Shown here: positions 4,362-10,550 of the stretch, one piece after another
Position numbering within the stretch: position 1 is the first letter of the stretch
Layout: each line of letters begins with the position of its first letter
Origin: Phycisphaeraceae bacterium
GTDB lineage: Bacteria > Planctomycetota > Phycisphaerae > Phycisphaerales > SM1A02
Direction of reading: 5' to 3'
Length of the DNA: 64,000 nt
Assembly (NCBI GenBank): GCA_019636755.1
Contig: JAHBWZ010000007.1
Span: forward strand, 62,001 to 126,000
Position numbers and translations under genes: made by a program
Notes under the pieces: model-generated
The model's input: the letters and a program-made list of their open reading frames with translations, nothing else
The model's database searches: none
Told to the model about the DNA's origin: nothing

Positions 4362-6170
4362 TCACTCCACGCGCTGGCCCCGGCGGCGCGGCTGGCGCGG
4401 GGCATCATCGCCACCGGAACCGCCACCGCCGCCGCGCTCAGCACCGCCGCGCCCGGGGCCACCCTCGCCGCCCCCGCGGCGCATCCGCTCGCCCATGCGA
4501 TCCAGAATCTCGTTGATCTGATCCTCGGAGAGCCCACGCTCCCGCATCGCGCGGACCGCGCGCTCCCGCATCGCGGCCGGATCCATCGGCTGGCCTTCGA
4601 CACCCTGCCCACGGCGCCCGCCCTCGACGGCATCGCCGGGCCCGCCGCGCCGCCGGCCTTCACCCGGCAACCGGATCTCGGGCAGACGAAGAGCCTCCAC
4701 CAGCTCCGGGCCGAGGACCGAGGCGAGATCCGCGCGGACCTTGTGATCATGTTCCAGGAGCTGGCGCTGCGCGGCAGGAAGGGGACGCTGTTCCCGCTCT
4801 GCCATGGCGTCGCGCAGAGCCCGTTCGTTCTCCCGGAGCTGCTGCATCTGCTGCATGCGATCCGCCCGCGCGACGATGTCGCGCGGCTGCTCACGGCGTG
4901 CAACCTCGACCAGGTTCTCCTCCAGGCGATCTCGTTCAAGACGCCATGGTCCCTCGATCTCCCGGATCATCTCCAGTGTCTCGACGTCAGCCTCTGCCAT
5001 GTCGCCGACCCGACGGAACCATCGATCAAGGGCGCTCTGGCGGATCAGCGGCCGGTAGGCCGCTTCATGAAAGCGGTTGACGAAGGCCTCTGCGGCGCGG
5101 GCTCCGCGGACAGCGGCGATCTCGTCCGCCAGCATCCCGCCGTACCGCTCATTCACCTCTCGAACACGGACACGGGCATCGGCTTCGCGCTGAAGGCCGC
5201 GCCGCATGCCGTCCACGTCGATCTGCCCGTCGCCACCGCCGAGGAAGCCGAGGAACGCACCCCGCTGTTCGTCGAGCACGCTCTGTCGGGCCACGAGCGC
5301 CGCATCGAGTTCCTGCGCGTACGCCATGACGACATCCTCGAACTGCGCCATCTCCTCCGCACCGATTCCTTCGGACCGCATGAGGGCGATCAGGTCGATC
5401 GACTCGCCGGCGATGGACCCGAGCGGCACCAGCTTCTCCCGCCGCAGCGCGTGATTGAACCCGGGCCAGTACACCGCCTGATCCGGACTGAGAATCGTCC
5501 GTACGCCGGTCAGCAGCGCGCCGCGGAGCCGGCTCCGCTCGCTCTCCCACTCCTGGAGCAGCCCCTGGCCGGCTGCGCGGATCGCCGAGAGTTCGTCGGC
5601 CGAAGGACGGGGTGGCGCCAGGTCCCGCATCCGATCGCGGAGTTCGCTCATCCGCGTGCGCAGGTCCGCCATCGCCTCTTCATCTCCGCCGCGGGCCGCT
5701 TCGCGGATGGCATCGAGTTCAGTCCTGAGCGCCGCACGGGCCTCGTTCCTCGCCAGGGACTCCGGATCATTGCGATTGCCTCGCAGGCTCTGCAGGCGTT
5801 CTCGCATCGCCCGCGACGCATCGGCCCACCCCTGCTCGTAGTCCATGAACAGGATCTCGACGATCTGGCTCTGGGTCCGATCCAGGTGCAGTTCCCGTTC
5901 GAAGAGCAGGAGATCGCGCCGGATGAACTCCGGCTCCACGAGCTGCTGGAACCCGCCGAATCCGCCGCGCTGGAAGCCGGGCATCCCGCCCGCACCGGGG
6001 CCACCCCCGCGGCCCTCCTGCATCATCTGCATGCGACCGCCGCCGTCGGGGCGAGCACCCGGACGCCGTCCGTCCGGCTGTGCGGCGGCCAGCGACGCGA
6101 ATGCCAGGACCGGCACACACAGCGCGAGAACCCCGGTGACACGGCGATGCGGGACAGGGAAGGTCATCAT
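4362..6170 (-). CDS. Large secreted helical protein with LTxxQ/Spy-like features
   Basis: The 602-aa product has a signal peptide (residues 1-30, ending SLAAAQP). A Gly/Met-rich stretch follows (MQMMQEGRGGG), then about 450 residues of charged amphipathic helices. Near residue 70 a segment reads HLDRTQSQIVEILFMDYE. It resembles the LTxxQ signature of periplasmic Spy/CpxP/ZraP-like proteins, and similar blocks recur (ILSPDQAVYWPGF; LEHDHKVRADLASVLGPEL). The C-terminal 60 residues are Arg/Gly-rich, with REROLSEDQIN-like helix before the tail. Start ATG 6170 has AGGAGT at 6180-6185, 9 bases upstream; ATG 6167 is the alternative. It diverges from the sigma-factor operon at 6383, across a 212-base shared region. 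A periplasmic stress or metal-related role is inference. No enzyme motif is seen. Confidence 0.78.
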   Translation of the reverse strand: MMTFPVPHRRVTGVLALCVPVLAFASLAAAQPDGRRPGARPDGGGRMQMMQEGRGGGPGAGGMPGFQRGGFGGFQQLVEPEFIRRDLLLFERELHLDRTQSQIVEILFMDYEQGWADASRAMRERLQSLRGNRNDPESLARNEARAALRTELDAIREAARGGDEEAMADLRTRMSELRDRMRDLAPPRPSADELSAIRAAGQGLLQEWESERSRLRGALLTGVRTILSPDQAVYWPGFNHALRREKLVPLGSIAGESIDLIALMRSEGIGAEEMAQFEDVVMAYAQELDAALVARQSVLDEQRGAFLGFLGGGDGQIDVDGMRRGLQREADARVRVREVNERYGGMLADEIAAVRGARAAEAFVNRFHEAAYRPLIRQSALDRWFRRVGDMAEADVETLEMIREIEGPWRLERDRLEENLVEVARREQPRDIVARADRMQQMQQLRENERALRDAMAEREQRPLPAAQRQLLEHDHKVRADLASVLGPELVEALRLPEIRLPGEGRRRGGPGDAVEGGRRGQGVEGQPMDPAAMRERAVRAMRERGLSEDQINEILDRMGERMRRGGGEGGPGRGGAERGGGGGSGGDDAPRQPRRRGQRVE

Positions 6171-6382
6171 GGCATGGATACTCCTGGTCGATCCGGGGCC
6201 GGGCTCCGAAGAAGTCCGGCCGCGCGGTGTGCAATGCGGGGCTGTCTGAAGGTCCGATGACGCGGCAACCGGGCGCCGGGTCGGGGACAATACGGTCCAG
6301 GTGACGGTGGTATCCCCGCGTTGGGGAGACCTGCGCCGGTGGTACCGTACGCCCCACCTCCGGCCGCACCGCCGGGATCCGC

Positions 6383-7012
6383 ATGGATGTCGATCTGCAT
6401 GCCTGCCTGACCGGAGACCAGGATGCCTGGACCAGGTTCGTGCGCGCCGCGACACCGATCATCCGCGCCGCGACCTGCCGCGCCGGCAACCGGGGCCCGG
6501 GGGCGGCGCTGGACACCGACGACGTAGTGCAGGCCGTTCTGGCGCGGCTGATTCGAGACGATTATCGGCTCCTGCGCACCTTCGACGCGTCGCGTGCAAG
6601 CCTGCCGACCTGGCTGTCGATCGTGGCCCGAAGCGCGGCCATCGATCTCTTCCGCGCCCGGCGTCCGACGGCATCGATCGCGGACGACGGGGCGATCCCG
6701 GGTCGGGATGCCGGAGTGTCCGACGCGAACGGCGGCGAGGAACGTGGATCGGGCGGGGCGCGTTCGGCGCTGTCGGTCGTGCCACCCCACCTCCTGACGG
6801 CGCGGCAGGAACTGGTCCTGACCCTGCTCTTCGACCGTGATCTGAGCGTCGCCGAGGTCGCCCGGTTCCTGGACGTTGACGAACAGACCATCCGCAGCAC
6901 CAAGCACAAGGCGCTGCTTCGACTCCGCGCCTGCTTCGGGGCCCCGGAGAGCACCCGGGGATGCGAGGCCGCGGGCACGCGTAGCCCCTCCAGAGAGGAC
7001 ATCGAGCCGTGA
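6383..7012 (+). CDS. ECF-family RNA polymerase sigma factor
   Basis: A 209-aa group 4 sigma factor that redirects RNA polymerase to stress promoters. Region 2 is at about residues 20-95: DTDDVVQAVLARL is the core-binding helix and FDASRASLPTWLSIVARSAAIDLFRARR is the -10-recognition/melting part. Region 4 is at about 135-185: LTARQELVLTLLFDRDLSVAEVARFLDVDEQTIRSTKHKALLRLR, with the helix-turn-helix at its end. The linker is Gly/Asp-rich. Its stop codon overlaps the start of a zinc-finger anti-sigma-like gene (GTGA at 7009-7012), the standard arrangement for a sigma/anti-sigma pair. It diverges from the large LTxxQ-like secreted protein. It probably autoregulates this intergenic region (inference). 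Confidence 0.88.
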   Translation: MDVDLHACLTGDQDAWTRFVRAATPIIRAATCRAGNRGPGAALDTDDVVQAVLARLIRDDYRLLRTFDASRASLPTWLSIVARSAAIDLFRARRPTASIADDGAIPGRDAGVSDANGGEERGSGGARSALSVVPPHLLTARQELVLTLLFDRDLSVAEVARFLDVDEQTIRSTKHKALLRLRACFGAPESTRGCEAAGTRSPSREDIEP

Positions 7013-7722
7013 CTCGCCCCGACGACCATTTTCAGCCGGGCCCCGGGACGCCACCCCCGGATGACAGACGCACCCGGTCCGGAGAGCGGGCAGCGCGCGA
7101 CGCTGACCACGGAGACCATCCCCTCGACGAGCGGATGCTCTGGTCCACCTATCGGACCCTGGTCGGCGCCGAGCGTCATCGCGCGATGGACATCATCGCG
7201 CCCTGCCCGGACAGCCACGATCTCGCCGCATGGGTTGATGGAACCCTGGGGTCCGCCGCGCGTCTCAGGATGGAGGAGCACCTGGTTGCGTGCGCCGACT
7301 GCCTGGACCTTGCCCTCGCGGCCCGAGGCGCCCGGCGCGATCCCGAGGCGGCTGCGCCCCCACGGCCATCCCGGATCGCCCTGGCGCCCCGGGCCGCCGG
7401 CTCGTCGGATCCGGTGTCGGGTTCCCTCCACGGTATCCGAGGTCACGCACGGACCCTGAAACGGACAGGTCGCGCGCGAGGCTGGGCGCGCCGCGCACTT
7501 GCGGCGGCGATCCTCGTCACCGTCGGATGGGCCGGCTACGAACTCGGTCTCCGCGCCGCTGACACAGGGGCCGACGCTGCAGAGACACGCTCCAGCGAAT
7601 TCGATCTCCTGGCCACCGCCGCATTCGGCGCCTTCGGCGCAACATCGCTCGCCGATGATCCTCTGCTCGCGGCCCTCGGGGGCGAATGGACGGCGCTGAT
7701 CCAGGCCGAGGTGCGCCGATGA
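7009..7722 (+). CDS. Membrane-anchored zinc-finger anti-sigma factor (putative)
   Basis: The 237-aa product has a cytoplasmic zinc-binding module: Cys66, His70, His91, Cys95 and Cys98 in CPDSH...HLVACADC. This is the layout of ZAS-type anti-sigma domains. It is followed by one transmembrane helix at about 162-181 (RALAAAILVTVGWAGYELG) and a short periplasmic tail. GTG 7009 overlaps the sigma gene's stop by 4 bases, and the stop overlaps the ATG of the EF-hand gene, so all three are translationally coupled. The first 60 residues before the zinc module are disordered and charged. Expected role: hold the sigma factor at the membrane until a periplasmic signal arrives. The pairing is inferred from context and motif. 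Confidence 0.8.
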   Translation: MTRPDDHFQPGPGTPPPDDRRTRSGERAARDADHGDHPLDERMLWSTYRTLVGAERHRAMDIIAPCPDSHDLAAWVDGTLGSAARLRMEEHLVACADCLDLALAARGARRDPEAAAPPRPSRIALAPRAAGSSDPVSGSLHGIRGHARTLKRTGRARGWARRALAAAILVTVGWAGYELGLRAADTGADAAETRSSEFDLLATAAFGAFGATSLADDPLLAALGGEWTALIQAEVRR

Positions 7723-8594
7723 GCCGTTTCGTCATCACCCTGGCGCTCGCCGTGTCGCTGGCCTTCAACGTCTTCTTCACGCTCGGCGTGATCAAGGCGC
7801 AGAGCGGCCGCGCGGCGGCGTCCACGGATCCCGCCGCGGAGAACGCGACGATCGAGCAGGTCTCAGCGCAGCTCTCGCTCGACGAATCGCAGCAGGCCCT
7901 GTTCTCGCACATGCGACGCTCCGTCCTGGAGGACCGCGCCGATACCGTCCGCGCGACTTCTCTTATCCGGGAGGAGATCCTGGAGGAACTCCAGCAGGAG
8001 CGCCCCGACCTCGAACGCATCCGCGCCCTCGTGCTGCGCGGCGTCGACTCGGAACGCCGGCATCGCGCCTTCGCCGCTGCCCAGTTCAGCGAGTTCGTCG
8101 GTGTCCTGCGACCGCCGCAACGGGACCGCCTGCGCGGGGCACCGCCGGAGGGGGGAATGCATGGTCCTCCCCACGGGCCACCGCCACCCGGCGGCGCCCG
8201 GCGTGCACCACGCGGCGACCGCGCGGACCGGTCGGACAGTCCGGAGTCGCTGCTGCGCCAGTTCGACCGCGATGGCGACGGCGTCCTGACCGCGTCTGAA
8301 CGCGAGGAGGCGGAGCGGTTTCTCGACGCACGGCGCCGCGACCGCGAGGCACGCCGGGCCGAGATGATGCGCCGCTTCGACGCAGACGGTGACGGACACC
8401 TCTCCGAGGAGGAACTGGGCGCGATGCGCGCGTGGCTTTCGGAACAGCGCCGACTTCAGAGTGGCGGCGACAGCGTCCGCCCGCCGCGACCGCACCGGCC
8501 CGATCAGGGTGACCGGCTCGACGGACCCGATCATCCTGTCCCCCCCGATCGGCGCGACGCACCGACCGATCGCGATCACAGACGAGGCCGCTGA
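7719..8594 (+). CDS. Periplasmic sensor-like protein with two EF-hands
   Basis: The 291-aa product has an N-terminal signal-anchor helix (residues 4-26) and a helical periplasmic domain at about 45-140. That domain carries SLDESQQALF, similar to the LTxxQ signature of CnrX/Spy-type metal sensors. A His/Pro/Gly stretch follows (MHGPPHGPPPP, potential metal ligands). Two canonical calcium EF-hand loops lie at 183-194 (DRDGDGVLTASE) and 221-232 (DADGDGHLSEEE), and the tail is rich in Asp/His/Arg. ATG 7719 overlaps the anti-sigma stop (ATGA). In the known CnrYXH design a periplasmic CnrX-like protein transmits metal signals to an anti-sigma. This gene occupies the equivalent place but adds EF-hands. 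Ligand (Ca2+ or a transition metal) is unproven. Confidence 0.8.
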   Translation: MSRFVITLALAVSLAFNVFFTLGVIKAQSGRAAASTDPAAENATIEQVSAQLSLDESQQALFSHMRRSVLEDRADTVRATSLIREEILEELQQERPDLERIRALVLRGVDSERRHRAFAAAQFSEFVGVLRPPQRDRLRGAPPEGGMHGPPHGPPPPGGARRAPRGDRADRSDSPESLLRQFDRDGDGVLTASEREEAERFLDARRRDREARRAEMMRRFDADGDGHLSEEELGAMRAWLSEQRRLQSGGDSVRPPRPHRPDQGDRLDGPDHPVPPDRRDAPTDRDHRRGR

Positions 8595-8652: not shown

Positions 8653-9735
8653 TCAAGGCGCGCAGCAGCCGCACCAGCCTCCCACCGCGCCGATGGCGAA
8701 GGTCCCCTCGGCCGAGCCCGGCGCGGACAGAGGGAGGAGCGCCGCCGGAACCGGCGCCGGCGGCAGGGCCCGGAGTCGATCCAGGACGTTCCTCCGGTAC
8801 TCGGACTCGCCAAGCCGGAACGCGGGGTCGTTCTGCGTGTACGCGTACTCGCCGGCAAGCATCCGCGTGATGCGCTCCACGCGGTTCTCCGGGAACGGAT
8901 GCGTCGAGAGCCACTCCGGCTCCCGCGCCGCGCCGGAGGAGAGCCCGGCGAAGATCTCCATGACCTGTCGCTGCCCGAGCGGGTTGTATCCGACGCGCGA
9001 CATGTAGCGCATGCCCAGCGCATCGGCTTCCAGTTCCTCGTCACGACCGAACTTGAGCAGGACGAGCTGGCCCCCGATCATGACTGCCGGGATCGCCGCC
9101 TGGACAGCCGCCGCGGTTGCACTGCGCTCCGCGCTGGCGCCTGCCACGGTGGCCACGATCACCATTCCGATCTGGAAGCCCGTGGCCTGAGATATCCGCT
9201 GATTCCCGTGACGGGCCGTCACGTGACCGATCTCGTGCCCGATCACACCCGCCAGTTGTGCCTCATTCTGGAGCCGCTCCGCGAGTCCCCGGGTGATGAA
9301 CACCTTCCCGCCCGGCAGCGCGAACGCGTTGATCACAGGAGAATTCAGGAGTGTGAACTCCCACGGAACAGAGGGAAACTCACCTTCGGTCTCCGCGGCC
9401 ATGCGCCGTCCGATGTCGCTGATGTAGCGATGAAGCTCCGGATCCGGAACGGGTCCCCCGAACTCCTCCGTGAACTGGGGCGCCGCCTCGGCGCCGAGCG
9501 CGATCTCCTGGCTCATCGACATCATGGCGAATTGCCGCTTGCCGGTCGCCGGATTCACGGAACAGCCGCCGCTGCCGCAGATCCCGAGCACAAGGAGCGA
9601 GAGCAGCAGCGCCGCCGATCCTCTTTCTCCGAGGCGGGTCCTCCAGCGTCGGCACGAAGGGGCGGCGTGACCTCGCGCTTCGCAGGACGACGTCTCGCGG
9701 GTCGGATGGTGCCTGTCATGCGTGAACCGGTTCAT
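8653..9735 (-). CDS. M48-family metalloprotease, putative lipoprotein
   Basis: Zinc endopeptidase of the M48 (BepA/LoiP/Oma1-like) family, likely involved in envelope protein quality control. The 360-aa product has a long n-region, a hydrophobic stretch and Cys58 in GSGGC, a loose lipobox. The protease domain follows. HEIGH at 167-171 gives two zinc histidines and the catalytic Glu; Glu236 in EADALG is the third ligand; STHPFPENR is the conserved H-P segment. There is a hydrophobic loop after the HEIGH helix. The last residues are WCGCCAP, an unusual cysteine cluster. I chose ATG 9735 because the frame further upstream is Arg-rich and has no signal sequence. It stands alone between two convergent/tandem units. 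Confidence 0.9.
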   Translation of the reverse strand: MNRFTHDRHHPTRETSSCEARGHAAPSCRRWRTRLGERGSAALLLSLLVLGICGSGGCSVNPATGKRQFAMMSMSQEIALGAEAAPQFTEEFGGPVPDPELHRYISDIGRRMAAETEGEFPSVPWEFTLLNSPVINAFALPGGKVFITRGLAERLQNEAQLAGVIGHEIGHVTARHGNQRISQATGFQIGMVIVATVAGASAERSATAAAVQAAIPAVMIGGQLVLLKFGRDEELEADALGMRYMSRVGYNPLGQRQVMEIFAGLSSGAAREPEWLSTHPFPENRVERITRMLAGEYAYTQNDPAFRLGESEYRRNVLDRLRALPPAPVPAALLPLSAPGSAEGTFAIGAVGGWCGCCAP

Positions 9736-10160
9736 GGTGATGGCTCCGCGCGGCCGAGAGACTGCGGCCGGGCCAGGGTCAGGAGATCGGGCGGCGATCG
9801 TGCGACGCGCCCCGGTCGGAAGGCTGAAGAATACACGCGCACGACGCGGGATTGCCGGGATCACGATCCCTGACCGGAGGCCGGCGCGCGCATCGGAGCC
9901 GGAACGTGAGCGCCGGGGCAACCTGCCGCGAACCGCATCGTCGCATGGTCCCTTCATGCTCTGCCGCCGCACGCCGGGGCGAGGCGGGCACAGCGCCGGA
10001 TCCTCTCCCGTCGTCCCTTCTTTCCGGGGATCCGTCGCAGGCTGGCGTGCCGGAAGTCGCGATGCGCCCGGACCACGATCTGCCGAGGCTCCCTCGCCCC
10101 GCGGCAGGTGCGGAGGAACCGCCCGGCGCGACCAGCACCGGTCCACGGAATCTCCCACGG
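9736..10160. other. 425-base gap, no gene found
   Basis: Between the start of the M48 gene and the stop of the small membrane protein gene, both on the minus strand. It should hold the promoter of the protease gene and the end of the upstream transcript. I see open frames only as GC-driven shadows, and no convincing RNA gene or long palindrome. Confidence 0.5.
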
Positions 10161-10550
10161 TCACTCTCGCCCGGCTCGGACTGTCCGCCCGGGTGGTCGC
10201 AGTTCTGCCCGGACGCAGCGTCCGCCGCTGAACTCGACCTCGACGACGAGATCGGTCCACGAGTTGATCGGCGCGGTCCGGATCAGGGTCACGCCGTCAT
10301 CGACGTCGCGGAGCGATCGCGTCCGGAAGACCGTTTCGATCTCCTCGCCACGCATGCCGATCAGGCCGCCATCGTGCACGAGTGTCATCCAGCGCGACTC
10401 CTCGGTGGAGTACCTCCAGAGCGTCCAGGCGCCCCAGCCGCCGAGCGTGCACGCGGGTACCAGAAGGCACACGAGGACCGCGCGGCCGCTGACCCGGCGG
10501 GCAGGGGTTCGGGAATCACCATCGGCACGGCGCGGTCTCGGTTCCGACAT
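10161..10550 (-). CDS. Small single-pass membrane protein, unknown
   Basis: The 129-aa product has a charged N-terminus (PRPRRADGDSRTPARR), one transmembrane helix at about 22-45 (GRAVLVCLLVPACTLGGWGAWTLW) and a periplasmic domain of about 80 residues. I recognise no family. The periplasmic part looks like alternating strands (ETVFRTRSLRDVDDGVTLIRT; DLVVEVEFSGGRCVRAELRP). It overlaps the last gene of the lipid operon (DUF1475, stop at 10516) by 35 bases on the same strand. It may therefore be the ninth member of that operon, but the overlap is not the 4-base type used inside it. Confidence 0.6.
   Translation of the reverse strand: MSEPRPRRADGDSRTPARRVSGRAVLVCLLVPACTLGGWGAWTLWRYSTEESRWMTLVHDGGLIGMRGEEIETVFRTRSLRDVDDGVTLIRTAPINSWTDLVVEVEFSGGRCVRAELRPPGRTVRAGRE

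Follow-up and report, generated by a model that had tools for sequence, protein, structure and literature searches.

An EF-hand pair on a Spy/CnrX-like sensor in a planctomycete sigma factor operon: a candidate CnrYXH-like switch with a shared promoter-like motif

A 64,000-nucleotide stretch of DNA from an uncultured planctomycete (Phycisphaeraceae bacterium; contig JAHBWZ010000007.1, positions 62,001 to 126,000; hereafter, the window) holds a three-gene operon on its forward strand (6383–8594) that encodes an extracytoplasmic function (ECF) sigma factor, a membrane anti-sigma factor, and a sensor in which a pair of EF-hands follows a Spy/CnrX-like domain. A bipartite promoter-like motif precedes both the anti-sigma–sensor pair and a divergently transcribed gene for a 602-residue, secreted-looking helical protein. 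With a probability of roughly 60%, we read the circuit as a whole as a CnrYXH-like transmembrane sigma switch to whose sensor an EF-hand module has been added.

An EF-hand-bearing sensor in a sigma factor operon

The sigma factor gene (6383–7012, 209 aa) and the anti-sigma factor gene (7009–7722, 237 aa, GTG start) overlap in a GTGA, and the anti-sigma factor gene overlaps the sensor gene (7719–8594, 291 aa) in an ATGA, all three on the forward strand; the gene for the 602-aa protein (4362–6170) lies on the reverse strand, and all four are where a preliminary description made from the sequence had placed them. The first gene encodes, as had been proposed, an ECF sigma factor: regions 2 and 4 are present and region 3 is absent (Pfam Sigma70_r2, E = 8.4e-7; Sigma70_r4, 1.1e-9), the sigma70-ECF profile TIGR02937 matches at 2.9e-13, all three over their cut-offs, and the identity to 15 relatives is 38–53%. 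A PDB search with the sigma profile gave 20 matches at E 0.001, and CnrH is not among them. The second gene encodes a class I (zinc-type) anti-sigma factor, with a zf-HC2 match over the cut-off (4.9e-6) in its cytoplasmic domain, an HxxxCxxC motif, and, by hydropathy, one clear hydrophobic segment (residues 163–181) followed by a 56-residue tail; among relatives, the tails are mostly short and vary from one to another. The zinc site claimed for this protein is thus present in the window copy but poorly conserved, with HxxxCxxC in 14 of 71 relatives, and we rejected zinc sensing by the anti-sigma factor because so few relatives retain the ligands. The count fits the published view (PMC7406223) that ligands of this kind often have a structural role.

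The sensor begins with a strongly hydrophobic segment, from residue 4 on, and, because this segment is kept in relatives, the protein is probably membrane-anchored rather than simply exported, as it had been described. The segment is followed by the Spy/CnrX-like domain, by a linker that varies among relatives and is His-rich in the window copy and some others, and by the EF-hand pair. Pfam places the sensor in the Metal_resist/LTXXQ (CnrX-Spy) superfamily, with a match to Metal_resist (PF13801) over residues 12–137 (7752–8129, forward strand) at 5.8e-8 and 33.4 bits, compared with a cut-off of 29.2. An LTxxQ-like helix had also been noted; the window copy matches LTXXQ at just E = 0.26, and it is the relatives that bear the helix out. 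In an alignment of 44 sensors (the window copy plus 43 from a wider set of 69), and at E up to 0.01, 43 match Metal_resist and 41 match LTXXQ, and two L-x3-Q motifs (L54/Q58 and L130/Q134), as well as Ser13 and Asn17 in the membrane helix, are invariant in all 44.

An AlphaFold2 model based on the same 44 sequences (mean pLDDT 80.8, pTM 0.46) has an N-terminal helix at residues 2–34, further helices at 38–52, 56–91, 98–129, and 132–140, and the EF-hand region at 175–248. The top PDB matches found with Foldseek are CpxP, ZraP, a VirG-like protein, and Spy, with CnrX further down, at target TM-scores of about 0.5–0.7 and with no E-value below 0.1. Spy and CnrX rank first in VIA-align (Spy, 3o39: Z 9.3, rmsd 4.2, 96 aligned; CnrX, 4wwf: Z 9.1, rmsd 3.2, 101 aligned). 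When PDB sequences were searched with a profile of the sensor domain, the E-values were 4.2e-7 for a VirG-like Spy-fold protein, 1.5e-4 for Spy, 0.015 for NccX, and 0.54 for CnrX, with some designed and unrelated helical proteins interspersed among the Spy-fold matches. The sequence evidence for a putative Spy/CnrX-like domain is therefore stronger than the fold evidence, and the fold matches are consistent with it. The two kinds of match agree on a CnrX/Spy-like fold over approximately residues 41–147, which covers the stretch (residues 45–140) where such a fold had been anticipated. The window's genome has one further Metal_resist/LTXXQ match, a weaker one, at C15:189534–189905, a place unrelated to the operon.

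The EF-hand pair consists of two canonical 12-residue loops, DRDGDGVLTASE (8265–8300) and DADGDGHLSEEE (8379–8414), both on the forward strand, within a helix-loop-helix pair, as judged by sequence, Pfam (EF-hand_1, 3.9e-10, two stretches), and the model; the “two perfect loops” of the preliminary description are indeed both canonical. Two such loops are kept in 15 of the 16 sensors of the family in related genomes. In the wider set of 69 sensors, where loops were counted by letter pattern so that degenerate ones are missed, 30 have two or more, 2 have one, and 37 have none. The module that had been suspected, EF-hands on a Spy/CnrX-like domain, is thus a conserved one, and all 32 EF-loop sensors come from records with planctomycete titles; the same pattern picks up no loop in any of the roughly 26 alphaproteobacterial sensors encountered. 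Planctomycete sensors without EF loops were also found (L085, L091, L093, and L113), and the 37 include two that reach contig ends (L130 and L132) and one that loses its frame (L142).

On a tree of 68 sigma factors, the EF-hand label needs 4 changes, compared with a mean of 22.9 when labels are shuffled, and the window copy sits on a long branch; a single origin of the fusion is no more than possible. The sensor L110:8184–8828, with a single EF loop, falls outside the main EF-bearing group, beside the EF-less L085 and L113, and is possibly a separate gain or loss. We also considered a Rosetta-stone argument, in which a separate EF-hand gene would lie beside the alphaproteobacterial cassettes. 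Loop-like peptides occur in eight of those loci, but they lie on the strand opposite longer open frames, the same conserved sequence in seven of the eight, so the argument was dropped. A conserved long open frame, fumarase-like by eye, is found upstream of the sigma gene in seven of eight checked alphaproteobacterial loci (L096–L141; e.g., L109:4833–6485, forward strand).

A sensor match is present in 29 of 101 related genomes, and loci were fetched from 20 of these (the window's own genome being included in both counts), nine with weaker matches being left out. In 16 of the resulting 21 loci (the window plus 20 from 19 genomes), a sigma factor, a small membrane anti-sigma factor, and a sensor follow one another in order; the remaining five contain EF-hand proteins only, and the cassette is thus found in 16 of the 20 genomes examined. 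Scanning the contigs of named genomes with the alignment of sigma factors yielded 72 loci, by title from Planctomycetota (mostly Phycisphaerales) and Alphaproteobacteria, with a few from Aminicenantes, Omnitrophota, and others. All three genes are together in 67 of the 72, upholding the CnrYXH-like order proposed earlier and suggesting that a sigma/anti-sigma/CnrX-like cassette is common to planctomycetes and other phyla, its input changed by domain fusion.

A promoter-like motif and the genes behind it

Shared promoter-like sequences were analyzed in the window and in 26 of the 33 planctomycete loci whose sensor has EF-hands or is cut by a contig end, 27 loci in all (L072, L073, L077, L115, L139, L140, and L143 were excluded because they are near copies or have cut genes). 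Letter pairs in the 300 bases upstream of the sigma gene, counted without bias, gave TACG-N17-ATCC in 20 of the 27 loci (i.e., GGAT-N17-CGTA facing away from the sigma gene), and the best pair in each of eight resampled sets reached just 4–6 of 27. The consensus is bipartite, GGGATR-N16-CGTA. When counted as GGGA-N17–19-CGTA against 300 sets resampled from a first-order Markov model, in figures that are to be taken as descriptive, the motif faces away from sigma, toward the divergent gene, in 24 of the 27 loci (resampled mean 0.24, maximum 3; it is absent at L087, L110, and L120) and toward sigma in 10 (mean 0.15, maximum 3). The junction between the sigma and anti-sigma genes was counted after the motif had been fixed on the upstream regions, and there the motif precedes the anti-sigma–sensor pair in every one of the 27 loci, lying between +524 and +630 relative to the start of the sigma gene and never reversed (mean 0.12, maximum 2). 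Outside the upstream regions, 391 kb contain 46 matches, 27 of which are the junction sites.

All three sites are present in the window: GGGATA-N16-CGTA toward the 602-aa gene (6291–6316, reverse strand), ending 121 bases before its start; GGGAGA-N16-CGTA toward sigma (6324–6349, forward strand), with one mismatch to the consensus; and GGGATG-N16-CGTA at the end of the sigma gene (6958–6983, forward strand), 26 bases before the anti-sigma start. The shared motif that had been predicted between the sigma operon and the 602-aa gene is thus borne out by the counts over the 27 loci, and the comparative sequences lead us to infer that it is the promoter of this sigma factor. In its stricter GGGGATR form, the motif has 83 matches compared with 26 for the control in 16 genomes with the module, 22 of the 83 lying at the module, and 31 compared with 23 in 15 of the 72 genomes that lack a sensor match. 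In 37 further loci, most of them with EF-less sensors, it is found at the junction in 14, toward sigma in 4, and outward in none, so that part of the cassette loci shared across phyla carry the same motif. At 28 mostly alphaproteobacterial junctions, where the motif was counted without resampling, some other letter pairs (in up to 22 of 28) outnumber the motif (8 of 28) and may reflect conserved sigma codons.

The 602-aa protein and its relatives, here called P4, form a family of large, helical, secreted proteins that is widespread in planctomycetes, with members in 72 of the 101 related genomes and often several per genome, and the present locus gives the family its first regulatory context. 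Relatives occupy the same place in most loci. The named loci contain 22 P4 proteins, of which 18 are divergent from sigma and have one or two EF loops, while 4 lie downstream of the sensor and have no EF loops, which the window copy also lacks; in two of the latter four loci (L074 and L079), the motif points at a divergent gene for an EF-hand-bearing AhpC/TSA redoxin. The motif stands upstream of P4 in 18 of the 18 divergent cases, 44–79 bases from the guessed start in 14. Because the motif precedes both, the 602-aa protein is, on sequence grounds, a likely direct target, as had been supposed, and the anti-sigma–sensor pair a likely feedback arm. Ten other motif sites were picked by hand (for a known P4 or EF-hand neighbor, an identical sequence, or by eye) and are examples rather than a rate: the genes behind them encode a P4 relative (G015), EF-hand proteins (G020 and G014), redoxins (G012, G007, and, by eye, G036), a planctomycete-cytochrome domain protein and an arylsulfotransferase-like protein (both G034), a DUF1800 protein (G012), and a low-complexity frame (G020). 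P4 paralogues are also found in the window's own genome (C1:450366–451439, C1:203968–204924, and C14:275797–276603), none at its five motif-match sites.

The LTxxQ-like blocks ascribed earlier to the 602-aa protein hold up poorly. The window copy has no good Pfam match (best E = 0.39), and we set LTXXQ aside as its family, any link being weak at most; among 20 P4 proteins (the window copy plus 19 of the 22, the other three being a pair of near copies and a protein with a masked stretch), and at E up to 0.5, 5 match Metal_resist (best 0.0028) and 2 match LTXXQ (best 0.00063). Only the first P4 segment resembles the sensor domain, weakly (hhalign probability 32–68%, P about 5e-5 to 5e-4), and no block of the protein matches another except two that overlap by construction. 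The model is all-helical (pLDDT 76.6), and Foldseek found no structural relatives (best PDB match E 0.43). Of the 25 loci that have a P4 or P4-like gene, 8 (L090, L092, L098, L099, L120, L130, L131, and L135; e.g., L090:3401–4783, reverse strand) contain, downstream of that gene, one or two open frames with an HExxHxxGxxH-type site and dockerin-like calcium loops, one of which, when scanned, proved to be an M12B reprolysin-like peptidase; there is no such frame beside the window copy.

The proposed circuit and its alternatives

In the circuit that we propose, the membrane anti-sigma factor would bind this sigma factor and hold it at rest, and the sensor would act through the anti-sigma factor by touching either its membrane helix or the short tail that it has in the periplasm. 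Sigma would be set free when the sensor changes, most likely in the calcium state of an EF-hand pair that is expected to bind calcium, perhaps read jointly with the contents of the Spy-like cradle. As the comparative DNA analysis suggests, free sigma would then read GGGATR-N16-CGTA promoters and turn on the divergent secreted helical protein, and the internal promoter would supply more anti-sigma factor and sensor, shutting the response off; a promoter at that position thus predicts a self-limiting response. The EF loops in 18 of 22 P4 relatives and the motif before some unlinked EF-hand and redoxin genes support this circuit. Calcium itself as the physiological signal is, from the sequences, a possibility that we place a little short of even odds. 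In its most far-reaching form, the idea is that an ECF sigma factor has a one-piece calcium receptor in the envelope, in which the EF-hand pair on the Spy/CnrX-type sensor would turn the calcium state outside the cell or in the periplasm directly into sigma release and control secreted EF-hand, redoxin, and helical proteins in planctomycetes; this we put forward tentatively and regard as somewhat doubtful. The way in which bacteria read external calcium into transcription is poorly understood, and the present system is compact and testable: each of its candidate parts, from receptor through brake and sigma factor to target and promoters, can be named.

Several observations weigh against this reading. 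Seawater is rich in calcium, which makes saturation of the EF-hands a concern in marine species. EF loops are absent from 1 of the 16 family sensors and from 37 of the 69 in the wider set, so the basic circuit can do without EF-hands. The fold result is compatible with a Spy/CnrX-like domain without being decisive, because a designed helical oligomer (5izs) scores like Spy and CnrX (Z 9.1) and the scores do not rise above the helical background. As for the motif, the loci are related and resampling therefore overstates its significance, and the divergent redoxin-like gene at L087 has no motif toward it. The window's genome contains 5 perfect matches compared with 3 for the reversed control, 2 of the 5 being the perfect sites described here, and the window itself has 8 matches with up to one mismatch compared with 4.4 expected, a number reached in 8 of 100 shuffles and not significant alone.

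The sensor might instead monitor envelope-protein folding stress in the manner of Spy and CpxP, with secreted proteins that are unfolded or too abundant filling the Spy-like cradle and the EF-hands serving as structural or docking domains stapled by calcium. In its favor, the top fold matches are Spy, CpxP, and ZraP, the profile match to Spy is significant (1.5e-4), EF-less sensors keep the same operon, and the likely targets include redoxin and large helical secreted proteins; however, canonical loops in 15 of 16 family sensors, together with EF loops in many P4 relatives, suggest that the EF-hands are more than a spacer, and we consider this explanation unlikely. We find it quite improbable that the third protein is a co-regulated effector and that the anti-sigma factor itself senses (e.g., by regulated proteolysis of its tail), since the sensor-like gene adjoins the anti-sigma gene in 67 of 72 loci from several phyla, a Ser and an Asn of its membrane helix are invariant in 44 of 44 sequences, and most anti-sigma tails are short, even though the internal promoter would place the gene in the regulon and the tails differ between relatives.

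A CnrX-type Ni/Co site is built from conserved His, Met, and Glu ligands in the sensor domain. Over residues 30–150 of the 44 sensors, no column is conserved as His, Met, or Cys (maxima 23%, 30%, and 7%), and we therefore rejected transition-metal sensing at a CnrX-like site. A transition-metal sensor of any CnrX-like kind (for Ni, Co, Zn, or Cu) is accordingly very improbable: the Pfam name Metal_resist, the presence of CnrX among the fold matches, and the His-rich linkers of the window copy and some relatives speak for it, but the linkers vary and the profile matches to CnrX (E 0.54) and NccX (0.015) are poor.

Comparison with known systems

Like the proposed switch, CnrYXH (and NccX) of Cupriavidus metallidurans combines in one cluster an ECF sigma factor, an anti-sigma factor in the membrane, and a membrane-anchored Spy-fold periplasmic sensor, and CnrX is thought to act through CnrY (PMC4598750). 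The cassette differs in its added EF-hands, in the absence of conserved CnrX-type ligands, and in its likely target, a helical secreted protein rather than an efflux pump; it also lies outside CnrYXH proper in having a zf-HC2 (class I) anti-sigma factor where CnrY is assigned to class II (PMC7406223). Spy, CpxP, and ZraP have the fold that is probable here and the paired L-x3-Q motifs; the present sensor differs from them in its membrane helix, in its EF-hands, and in being encoded in a sigma operon.

In the CaBP-SigV system of Caulobacter vibrioides, as described in a 2026 report (PMC13171946), a periplasmic EF-hand protein is likewise coupled, with feedback, to an ECF sigma factor. That EF-hand protein stands by itself, transcription of the genes is independent, and the link through the membrane is not known, whereas here the EF-hands are on the sensor, next to the anti-sigma factor. 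A one-piece receptor, if real, would supply a membrane link of the sort still missing from the Caulobacter circuit. An operon of Azospirillum brasilense for RpoE8, a hypothetical protein, and a periplasmic heavy metal sensor (PMC12826043) has the same gene order by annotation. Related alphaproteobacterial cassettes were found here, and their sensors, unlike that of the window, have no EF loops. Operons for a sigma factor, a small protein, and a “periplasmic heavy metal sensor” are thus already known by annotation, and the EF-hand-fused sensor is a new variant; searches of open-licence full texts turned up no account of a sigma operon whose Spy/CnrX sensor is fused to EF-hands.

PADLOC gave no anti-phage defense match for the anti-sigma factor, the sensor, or the 602-aa protein. 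Beside the sensor gene, on the reverse strand, an open frame (8653–10260) contains HEIGHVTARHGNQ and is, by eye, an M48-type metallopeptidase.

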